Origin: a virus
Strand: one strand, 5' to 3'
Virus record (IMG/VR): IMGVR_UViG_3300028258_000007
Location: 1-35,919 of that record
Length of the DNA stretch: 35,919 nucleotides
How positions within the stretch are numbered: the stretch's first letter is position 1; the number at the start of each line of letters is the position of its first letter. Under the pieces are notes generated by a model. That model was given only the letters and a program-made list of their open reading frames with translations. It was not told where the DNA came from and did no database searches. The translations under genes and the position numbers were made by a program. Below, in pieces: positions 6,371 through 9,189 of this stretch.

Positions 6371-6403
6371 CACTCACGCAAGCAAATGGAGGATCAAAAA
6401 ATC

Positions 6404-6796
6404 ATGACCAAAGAAAACCATGTCATTGTGTTAAACGCAGCCCGCGAAGTTACCAGAGCCATGAGCGCCGCTCTTGAAGTAGTGAGCAACATGCAGCCGG
6501 TAGAAACATGGGCAGAGCGTGAGCAGCGCCTTGCCGAAGGGCGCAGCAGCCCGACAGGCTGGCCCATGAAGCGCCTGCCGCGCAGTGATGATGGCCTGAC
6601 CATTCCAGAGCGCCGCGCGCTGATCGTGCAGCCGTCGCCAGTGGTGCGCAGCCGCATTGTCATATGGCTTGCGGCGATGGATCAAAGCGTTCCGCTTGAC
6701 GGGCCTAGCTTTTTCGACGGCATGCCATGGTGGCAGCAGGTTGTTTATGGCATCACGCCAGCAGCAATTATAATTCTGGCCTTGATCTTGGCATAA
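6404..6796 (+). CDS. Tail-anchored membrane protein upstream of the ATPase
   Basis: This 130-residue protein is soluble-looking and fairly basic until its end, where a hydrophobic helix (about residues 113-130, ITPAAIIILALILA) reaches the stop codon, the form of a C-tail-anchored membrane protein. The start at 6404 has GGAGGA ten bases upstream; an ATG at 6386 lacks a ribosome site. It is the first gene of the long early operon and lies 26 bases before the Mpa/ARC-like ATPase gene. It could place a partner, perhaps the ATPase, at the membrane. Family unknown. Confidence 0.7.
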   Translation: MTKENHVIVLNAAREVTRAMSAALEVVSNMQPVETWAEREQRLAEGRSSPTGWPMKRLPRSDDGLTIPERRALIVQPSPVVRSRIVIWLAAMDQSVPLDGPSFFDGMPWWQQVVYGITPAAIIILALILA

Positions 6797-6822: not shown

Positions 6823-8547
6823 ATGAACAGAGCGCCAAACTTGCGCATGTTGCGCGATATAAAGGATCAGGTTGAGCGCGGCCGCATGTCTTTGGGCGAA
6901 GCCATCAACCTGCTTGATCGCAATGGATTTGGCCGGCCAGACTGGGTGCGCGAGTATAGCAAAATGCCGCCCGGTGATTATGTTCGCCCTGATCGAACAG
7001 GGCTTACAGAGCGCCAGCTTAACCTTGTTTATCAGCTTAAAAATACCAGTCCTTATGTCTTTACAGAGTTTAAGCGCGAATATGAATATTTGCGCGGTGT
7101 AAAATCAGATGATGACACAATCTTGAGAAACTTACGGGAGAAATTCAAAATGCCTGCAGATATTAAAATGCCTGACCTTGAAGCCGCAATGCGCCAGATG
7201 GTCAATATTGCCATTGGTGCTGGCGGTGGCGGCGGTGGTGGGTATATGCAGATTGCTGACAGCATTAAAAATTCTGATCGTGAGTATCAGGTAATGACGC
7301 TGCGCGCCCAGCTTGAAGATGCACGCGACACCATCAAAGAACAGCAAGAGGTGTTGGAGCAGATCGCCAAAGAGCCGCTTATTGCCCACACGATCAACCG
7401 GATAAGCAAGTGCGGAAAATATACATTTGTGAAAAAAGGCGAACAAGAATTGCGCATACAGGCCAGCAATGATTTGAAGGTTGGCCATGTGGTTATGCTG
7501 CACCCAAAGACACTGCAGATTGTTGAGAATACAGGCTACCCGCCGCTTGAGGCTGGACAGTTTGCGCCGGCCGAAATTCCCAATGTCAAATGGTCAGACA
7601 TTGGCGGGCTGGAAGAAGCCAAGCAGGACATGATCGAAGCCATTGAAATGCCGCACCGTGAAAAGGAGCTTTTTGCATTTTATAAAAAGCGCCCGGTTAA
7701 AGGCATACTGTTATCAGGCCCGCCCGGTTGCGGTAAAACCATGCTTGGCAAAGCAGCGGCAACAGCATTGGCAGAGATTTACGGCGCAGCAAGTGCGCGC
7801 ACAGGGTTTTTGTATGTCAAAGCCCCTGAAATCCTCAACAGCTATGTTGGCGCCAGCGAAGAAACCGTGCGTGAAATTTTCATGGACGCGCGCCGGCACG
7901 CAAAGGAGCATGGTTATCCTGCCATTATCTTCATTGACGAGGCCGAGGCCATTCTTGCAAAGCGTGGCGGCATGGGCTTTTCAATGAGCAACACCATTGT
8001 GCCATCATTCCTGACCGAAATGGACGGGTTGGAAAGCAGCAGCGCCATTGTGATCCTTGCCACAAACCGGCCGGACATTCTCGACCCGGCAATTGTGCGT
8101 GAGGGCCGCATTGATCGCAAGGTAAGCGTCAAGCGCCCGAGCTTGAAGAACGCAACCGACATTATTGCCATGAACATGGCGCGCTATCCGATTGCCGAAG
8201 GTTGGGAACTGCAGAACCTAGCCGCAGGCATGGCCCACGAAATCTATGCAGATGCACGCACCCTGCAGGGCGACAAATACCTGCGCGACATTGTGAATGG
8301 CGCCATGCTGGCAGCATGCGTTGACCTTGCAGTTGCCAATGCCATGCGCCGGGATATTGAGGCGCGCAAAGACAAGGCTGGCCAAGCAGAGCCAGACGTT
8401 ACAGCCGATGGCAAGAAGGTGCTAAAGGCAGTTTCTGATCATTGGAAACCCACAGGCATCACGCCAGATGACGTGCTGCTTGCCGTGGCCCGTATCCACC
8501 ACCAGAACAACGGATTGCAACATGATTTTGATGGAGTTGAAAAATGA
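6823..8547 (+). CDS. AAA+ ATPase resembling proteasomal unfoldases (Mpa/ARC/PAN)
   Basis: This 574-residue protein has the parts of a proteasome-type unfoldase. Residues 1-130 are an unfamiliar helical region with a short UBA-like start, followed by a Gly run (134-140). A coiled coil follows (about 150-183), then one small beta domain (about 185-238, OB-like) and a AAA+ domain from about 252. In the AAA+ domain I see the entry NVKWSDIGGLEEAK, Walker A GPPGCGKT (299-306), pore-loop YVG (341-343), Walker B IIFIDEAE (368-375), sensor ATNRPD and arginine-finger REGRIDR (426-432). The C-terminal helical part (YADART to LRDIVNGAMLAACVD) is like Mpa/ARC. Mpa has two OB domains; one is visible here, as in PAN. 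The C-terminus ends FDGVEK, without the HbYX proteasome-docking motif. It should unfold or remodel proteins; the target is unknown. Confidence 0.85.
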   Translation: MNRAPNLRMLRDIKDQVERGRMSLGEAINLLDRNGFGRPDWVREYSKMPPGDYVRPDRTGLTERQLNLVYQLKNTSPYVFTEFKREYEYLRGVKSDDDTILRNLREKFKMPADIKMPDLEAAMRQMVNIAIGAGGGGGGGYMQIADSIKNSDREYQVMTLRAQLEDARDTIKEQQEVLEQIAKEPLIAHTINRISKCGKYTFVKKGEQELRIQASNDLKVGHVVMLHPKTLQIVENTGYPPLEAGQFAPAEIPNVKWSDIGGLEEAKQDMIEAIEMPHREKELFAFYKKRPVKGILLSGPPGCGKTMLGKAAATALAEIYGAASARTGFLYVKAPEILNSYVGASEETVREIFMDARRHAKEHGYPAIIFIDEAEAILAKRGGMGFSMSNTIVPSFLTEMDGLESSSAIVILATNRPDILDPAIVREGRIDRKVSVKRPSLKNATDIIAMNMARYPIAEGWELQNLAAGMAHEIYADARTLQGDKYLRDIVNGAMLAACVDLAVANAMRRDIEARKDKAGQAEPDVTADGKKVLKAVSDHWKPTGITPDDVLLAVARIHHQNNGLQHDFDGVEK

Positions 8548-8816
8548 CCACACGCTTTAAAGACCTCAAGACCGATGAAGAATGCGGCGAATTTTCGCTT
8601 GGCTTAAAGTTGCCCAGCGTTGGCAGCGTGCTGGACAAGCTTGACAATGCCCTTGGCGACATTGATTTGCTTGCGAAGCAGCACCAAGATGAAAACGAAA
8701 AGGAAGCCAAAGCCGGCCGCAAGCCAAAGCAGCGGCGTGGTGGCATGATCTGCATTTGCGGCAACCCCGGTTGCGGCATTGGCCCAATGGAAGAAACCAA
8801 CGGACAGGAGGCTTAA
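8544..8816 (+). CDS. Small Cys-containing protein coupled to the ATPase
   Basis: This 90-residue gene starts in an ATGA overlap with the ATPase gene, so the two are made together. It has a charged amphipathic helix (about residues 28-58, with VLDKLDNALGDIDLL), a basic linker (KPKQRR) and a tight cysteine cluster MICICGNPGCGIG (Cys70, Cys72, Cys77), which may bind metal. It could be an adaptor for the ATPase. It lacks the GGQ or GGE end of Pup, so it is not a plain Pup. Function unknown. Confidence 0.75.
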   Translation: MTTRFKDLKTDEECGEFSLGLKLPSVGSVLDKLDNALGDIDLLAKQHQDENEKEAKAGRKPKQRRGGMICICGNPGCGIGPMEETNGQEA

Positions 8817-8817
8817 A

Positions 8818-9189
8818 ATGATGATGGATATGGATGGATTTATGCGCATGATTGCCCAGCAGGCCATGAAAGAAATGGCTGGAGAGCAATACGAAAATAA
8901 AGACGAAGCTGTTGCTGCGCTGCAGCAGTTTATTGAAGCCAAGCCTGATTTTAAGGTTGGCGACCGTGTTGTGCGAAACGAAGCCGGCAAGAGCAATTAC
9001 AAATTCCCACAAGGAAATCAGGTTGCCATCTGCACGGCCATTGATGACAAGCGCGACAACAACGGCAACAACATGGAAATTGGCGTTGTGATCGGCCGCG
9101 ACAATTTCAGCTTTTACCGAGTGGACAGCCGCTTTTATAAGAAGGAAGCAGCCGGCGCCAATGTTTTCCAGTTTCAAAAGAAACTGTGA
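8818..9189 (+). CDS. Hypothetical early protein
   Basis: This 123-residue protein has a helical, Met-rich N-terminus (MMMDMDGFMRMIAQQAM). A beta-rich second half follows, with FKVGDRVVRNEAG, VAICTAIDD and IGVVIGRDNFSFYRVDSRFY, like a small barrel. An AGGAGG ribosome site lies seven bases before ATG 8818 (8821 is a possible alternative). It lies one base after the stop of the Cys-containing gene and belongs with the ATPase genes by spacing. No family recognised. Confidence 0.7.
   Translation: MMMDMDGFMRMIAQQAMKEMAGEQYENKDEAVAALQQFIEAKPDFKVGDRVVRNEAGKSNYKFPQGNQVAICTAIDDKRDNNGNNMEIGVVIGRDNFSFYRVDSRFYKKEAAGANVFQFQKKL

Follow-up and report, generated by a model that had tools for sequence, protein, structure and literature searches.

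The ATPase encoded in the viral DNA analysed here (the window, i.e. the whole 35,919-base virus record IMGVR_UViG_3300028258_000007) is best supported as a phage-encoded proteasome-type AAA+ unfoldase with affinity to ARC/Mpa, but not as an ARC itself. It almost certainly belongs to an ARC-type family of viral proteins that is sister to the cellular one. Its gene is followed by that of a small conserved peptide, absent from the preliminary description of this DNA and newly recognised here, which is very probably a functional partner of the ATPase. Dozens of unrelated phages combine such an unfoldase with a cysteine-tailed peptide, and this recurrence points to a viral system for protein remodelling of which we found no description; likewise, no description of phage proteasomal ATPases was found in the open-access literature.

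Genomic context of the ATPase gene

The window contains a podovirus-type structural module, including a head-tail adaptor (phrog_332, E = 2e-141), a tail protein (phrog_376), a major head protein (phrog_3437) and a terminase (phrog_2). Its portal protein is nearest to those of Pelagibacter podoviruses, with ~40% identity. The ATPase gene is therefore carried by a phage. A DNA-level search for the nearest phages matched only short unrelated stretches. Downstream of the ATPase lie exonuclease-/recombination-type genes (phrog_10477 and phrog_3657) and a dUTPase gene. Directly upstream is a small ORF (6386-6796) with one C-terminal membrane helix. At five of the loci compared (L001, L021, L030, L031 and L039), related genes, of the SNF2-helicase type where Pfam matched, occur within ~6 kb of the ATPase.

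Features of the ATPase and peptide genes in the window. Residue numbers are those of the ATPase; L numbers denote other loci encoding relatives.
Feature	Position	Strand	Basis and remarks
ARC-like AAA+ ATPase, 574 aa	6823..8547	+	ATG 6823 to stop 8547; profile, tree, AlphaFold2, structure match
Helical N-domain, residues 1-132 (modelled helical 4-132), lineage-specific	6823..7218	+	AlphaFold2; unmatched in 93 other viral ATPases
Coiled-coil helix, residues 142-182 (Pup-docking element in Mpa)	7246..7368	+	AlphaFold2; role in Mpa from PMC8755798
Single OB fold, residues 187-238, corresponding to Mpa from residue 157 on	7381..7536	+	AlphaFold2 and structure alignment
Walker A GPPGCGKT, residues 299-306	7717..7740	+	Read from sequence; alignment
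Pore loop 1 YVG, residues 341-343	7843..7851	+	Read from sequence; alignment
Walker B, ending D372-E373	7927..7941	+	Read from sequence; alignment
Arginine fingers R426 and R429 (REGR)	8098..8109	+	Alignment
Helical C-terminal part, residues 463-563; protein terminates short of the strands and GQYL tail found at the Mpa C-terminus	8209..8511	+	AlphaFold2, structure alignment
Partner peptide, 90 aa	8544..8816	+	ATG overlaps ATPase stop (ATGA); relatives in the same place in L001, L021, L306, L039 and L298; HMM
Predicted docking helix of the peptide, PSVGSVLDKLDNALGDIDLLAK	8613..8678	+	By analogy with Pup; helix-region HMM
Cysteine motif of the peptide, CICGNPGCGIGP; may bind a metal	8751..8786	+	Family comparison
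Next gene downstream of the peptide, at most 136 aa (start not certain)	8779..9189	+	Common only to L001, same position, E = 4e-6

Domain organisation of the ATPase

An alternative in-frame ATG at 6727 would yield a protein of 606 residues. As this codon falls within the upstream ORF, ATG 6823 is the likelier start, and the reading frame given in the preliminary description was retained. The AlphaFold2 model, obtained with 54 viral sequences as input, reached a mean pLDDT of 86.2, with a weak linker after the N-domain. It agrees with the order previously read from the sequence, namely coiled coil, OB fold, AAA+ domain and helical C-terminal part, and the OB fold, then placed at residues 185-238, was modelled with its strands at 187-238. 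This is the only OB fold in the window ATPase, whereas ARC/Mpa have two consecutive OB domains; judging from sequence, several viral relatives appear to have a tandem OB. The sole firm Pfam match was one AAA domain; an M41 protease domain was not matched.

The catalytic set is intact (with N415 as the sensor residue), and most landmark residues are invariant or almost so among the 54 aligned viral sequences. The YVG pore loop had been described as being of the PAN/Mpa style; it is indeed present, but corresponds to a generic aromatic-hydrophobic-Gly pore loop. Residues 1-130 had been described as an N-terminal addition that could select substrates. The N-domain found no match in the 93 other viral ATPases, including the three closest ones, and is therefore lineage-specific, which makes it an unlikely choice for a conserved substrate selector.

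Relationship to cellular ARC ATPases

Among NCBIfam profiles, the window ATPase scored highest with the ARC/Mpa family TIGR03689 (235.9 bits, far under the family cut-off of 504.75 bits), followed by CDC48 (195.8), PAN (178.3) and FtsH (144.3). Structural comparison with VIA-align gave Mpa as the top match (7px9, Z = 28.7, 355 residues, rmsd 4.0), residues 184-574 of the model being aligned onto Mpa 157-570. The 26S Rpt subunits came next, at most one Z unit behind, and Foldseek concurred.

Scans of IMG/VR yielded a set of 94 unique viral ATPases, a few of them fragments, each scoring best against the viral profile and encoded on contigs of up to 607 kb. Two isolated Brevundimonas phages and one 462-kb phage also encode an ATPase of the viral clade. 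A careful maximum-likelihood analysis of 78 rows united the viral proteins in one clade with a support of 96/83. Cellular ARC was its sister group, and the combined group was separated from PAN and CDC48 with a support of 100/100. The window ATPase clustered with those of L306, L021 and L001 (100/99). As the cellular ARC side, which includes an odd nanoarchaeal row, was supported at just 83/61, the position of the viral clade as sister to ARC, rather than nested within it, is likely rather than certain. The same picture emerged from a quick tree in which FtsH served as outgroup, and which left CDC48, FtsH and PAN outside the clade of ARC and viral proteins (support 100).

The Mpa affinity proposed in the preliminary description is thus upheld by the profile, the tree, the AlphaFold2 model and the top solved structure, but the protein is a member of a large all-viral sister clade and does not fall within Mpa/ARC proper. 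The single OB domain was correctly recognised, but the protein is ARC-like rather than PAN-like, PAN lying outside with full support.

Among the matches listed from 84,980 species genomes, the closest cellular relatives belong nearly all to Actinobacteria, Nitrospirota, Poribacteria, Verrucomicrobia and similar phyla. The loci of these listed relatives contained at least 44 distinct Pup genes, indicating that the relatives are of the ARC type.

Proteasome-docking tail and proteasome components

In Mpa, contact with the proteasome is made by the beta-grasp domain and GQYL (PMC9599533). An HbYX/GQYL tail was found in none of the 91 viral ATPases longer than 340 residues. This includes the window ATPase, which ends in DGVEK and which had already been reported to lack HbYX. 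The sampled cellular ARC proteins (n = 31) ended exactly in GQYL in 10 cases, the others having GHYL, GTYL or unrelated letters.

With positive controls, neither the 20S/HslV family (PF00227) nor the Pup ligase (PF03136) was detected in 32 viral records. Pup (PF05639) gave no match in the window record, and a single sub-threshold match among the 32 records, located within a long frame distant from the cassette. A ClpP-family protein scored above cut-off in 7 of the 32 records, all larger than 200 kb, without linkage to the cassette; no ClpP-family gene was found in the window.

A small peptide encoded next to the ATPase

Across the family, the gene following the viral ATPase encodes a short, charged peptide that has a helix at its centre and carries a cysteine-rich segment at its end. 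These segments are of two types: either CxC at the C-terminal extremity (CGC, CWC, CKC, CCCC, etc.) or a motif of the CxCGxPxCxIGP type. The window peptide, which terminates in NGQEA, is of the latter type and matches its relative in L001 with an E-value of 1.5e-13.

The association with the ATPase was assayed with an HMM trained on CxC-type peptides from other phages, from which the cysteine part had been cut away; the window peptide was not in the training set. The model was searched against 11,495 small ORFs obtained by six-frame reading of both strands of all loci. Its top 37 matches were without exception plus-strand ORFs located from -178 to +538 bp relative to the ATPase stop; elsewhere, the best match had an E-value of 1.5. 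The window peptide was recovered by this cysteine-free model at E = 5e-4. A CxC within the last 8 residues was also frequent in the curated peptides (18/35, versus 8/854 control ORFs of similar size), but the HMM test is sounder than this count because the curated peptides were picked partly for their cysteines.

Presence of the peptide follows the architecture of the ATPase, which was assigned from the chosen member that each ATPase matched best in BLAST. By hand count, the peptide accompanies 46 of the 61 ATPases with coiled coil and OB (15 are without it) and none of the 30 coil-less ones (Fisher P = 3e-13, a value that is too small since the loci are related). Conversely, a CGDPxCxxC motif lies in the N-terminus of the ATPase itself in 15 of the 30 coil-less proteins, versus none of the 61 others. 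In the maximum-likelihood tree, the coil-less (Brevundimonas-type) ATPases are nested within the viral clade; therefore the fused state of the cysteine motif looks derived. These sequence patterns are a sign that the cysteine module may act on the ATPase complex.

At eight loci (L031, L035, L037, L038, L298, L303, L314 and L322), two adjoining peptide genes share the helix region and differ in their cysteine ends, as if there were two adaptors per ATPase.

Homology of the peptide to Pup was tested and found no support, the similarity being no better than to reversed Pup. Comparison by hhalign at first gave P = 1e-3, with LLDEIDGLLEN aligned to VLDKLDNALGD, but reversing the peptide profile changed the score little (20.4 vs 19.0). 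When a Pup HMM was used to rank the peptides, the reversed model performed better than the forward one (AUC 0.965 and 0.943, respectively).

The DUF1360 membrane protein

In 34 viral loci, the second gene downstream encodes a DUF1360-like protein (PF07098). The gene lies 127-898 bp downstream of the ATPase, always on the same strand, and no second copy was found among 7,205 ORFs. The peptide is also present in 33 of these 34 loci. In a Pfam check, one of three proteins tested was above the cut-off and two were slightly under it. Only the two cysteines of a CxxC motif are invariant in the 33 aligned proteins. The structural model (pLDDT 93.8) comprises three long helices and short ones, the CxxC being located just ahead of the second hydrophobic helix; comparison with solved structures gave no match exceeding Z 4.5 or with an E-value under 0.29. 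In the open-access literature, DUF1360 was found in an unrelated context only.

DUF1360 is absent from the window and from its three nearest relatives; thus, a membrane step is not directly transferable to the window. Each of these four loci has a small one-helix membrane ORF nearby, such as 6386-6796 in the window, which may be meaningless.

Proposed mechanism and alternative explanations

Our working model, to which we give about an even chance, is an ARC-type ring ATPase that works without a proteasome, unfolding or disassembling proteins in concert with a dedicated small adaptor peptide. The ATPase would form a hexamer, with the polypeptide threaded through the YVG pore. In Mpa, the coiled coil is bound by the central helix of Pup, and the disordered N-terminus of Pup is threaded by the pore loops (PMC8755798). 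By analogy, the amphipathic helix of the viral peptide might dock on the coiled coil of the ATPase. The peptide parts follow the order of Pup, from threader through helix to tail, the ATPase has a coiled coil and the two co-occur, which makes such docking the best guess, albeit a tentative one that we place slightly below an even chance. The cysteine motif of the peptide could bind a metal, thereby holding cargo or a membrane partner, but a metal or membrane tether of this kind appears rather doubtful. CD4 and Lck are joined by a zinc clasp; given the CxC and CxxC motifs, the peptide tail and the membrane protein of DUF1360 phages could, by analogy, share one zinc ion.

Finally, the cargo would be let go unfolded or disassembled, and not degraded, as proposed for ARC in Corynebacterium glutamicum, where pupylated ferritin would be unfolded without a proteasome (PMC8223512). 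That system differs by its covalent pupylation via PafA. A full tag-and-unfoldase parallel to Pup-Mpa, free of ligase and protease, would have the peptide docked on the coil, its disordered N-terminus starting the threading, and the cargo or CxxC membrane protein held via a shared zinc. This combination of steps is unlikely.

The ATPase might instead remodel phage or host nucleoprotein complexes in replication, recombination or transcription, the peptide being a metal-binding regulator and not a cargo adaptor. The window gene does lie upstream of phrog_10477, phrog_3657 and the dUTPase, but comparison of 107 neighbours revealed no conserved wider neighbourhood: neighbours vary by phage (37 Pfam families, none in more than three), there is no fixed DNA-metabolism partner, and DUF1360 links many members to the membrane. 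We therefore regard this explanation, too, as unlikely. The membrane component at 34 loci would suit a superinfection-exclusion or counter-defence module, in which the ATPase would single out a host protein or an incoming one and work via a membrane partner. The cassette is self-contained and occurs in very different phages, amid diverse neighbours, which is consistent with this, as are weak matches of the AAA domain to the defence ATPases IetA and TRIP13. These matches, however, do not exceed 80 bits, far under ARC, and reflect just shared AAA ancestry, and the peptide and DUF1360 had no match in the defence database; such a module is less probable still.

Since proteasomes are fed by ARC homologues and ClpP is encoded in the seven large records, a degradation machine with ClpP, HslV or a 20S core of host or phage origin as its protease was also considered. 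It is improbable, as the window has no ClpP-family gene, the ClpP genes of the other records are unlinked to the cassette, the HbYX/GQYL tail is missing, and no 20S/HslV was found in the 32 records. The least credible explanation, and a highly improbable one, is an ordinary CDC48- or FtsH-type ATPase acquired from a host. Cdc48 did rank first in single-sequence phmmer, but this is because two AAA stretches were summed. Some more distant phage matches are annotated 'ftsH'; some of these, such as H4, lie amid host-like genes and were left out of the set. CDC48 falls outside the clade of ARC and viral proteins in both trees and FtsH in the quick one, and the window ATPase has a single AAA domain, against two in tandem in CDC48, and no M41 protease domain. 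A best match to FtsH, VCP or Bcs1, or absence of an OB fold at 185-238, had been named as the findings that would overturn the original assignment; in our profile, tree and structure comparisons, Mpa/ARC leads instead, and the OB fold is present in the model.

Comparison with known systems

The proposed adaptor system resembles ARC/Mpa in the order of coiled coil, OB and AAA+, in the sister-clade relationship and top structural match, and in having a small peptide gene near the ATPase, as Pup is near ARC. It differs in its single OB, its missing GQYL tail, its low TIGR03689 score and its occurrence in a virus without 20S, Pup or PafA. From PAN, the window ATPase is distinguished by its position outside the PAN clade and by the lack of an HbYX tail. 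Like Pup, the viral peptide is small, charged and probably disordered around a single central amphipathic helix, and is encoded near an ARC-type ATPase; unlike Pup, it ends in a cysteine motif instead of GGE/GGQ and has no ligase. The 'proteasome-associated ATPase' of the Brevundimonas phages Strzyga and Polewnik, already annotated so in GenBank, belongs to the same viral clade. In contrast to the window ATPase, it has no coiled coil or OB, carries its cysteine motif within the ATPase and is without a separate peptide.

The proteasomal ATPase lineage thus has a large viral sister clade, with members ranging from a podovirus-like phage of 36 kb up to ~600-kb contigs, which kept the motor and often the substrate-recruiting coiled coil while the proteasome was dropped. 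The unfoldase and its conserved small peptide provide a testable pair, bring the function of DUF1360 within reach and bear on how ARC and tagging peptides joined.

Some sequences from the same searches stand apart. A contig labelled Nanoarchaeota (L061, 4971-6596) encodes a deep-branching ARC-like ATPase without a GQYL tail, and no Pup gene was seen on it. Three IMG/VR contigs classed as viral (L224, L225 and L229) encode true ARC with GQYL/GMYL tails, and represent either actinophage-borne copies or host DNA. The 128-kb 'plasmid' NZ_AP024147.1 of Methylobacterium indicum (L502) encodes a relative with 43.9% identity, beside dnaQ and a YqaJ recombinase, and looks like a phage-plasmid.
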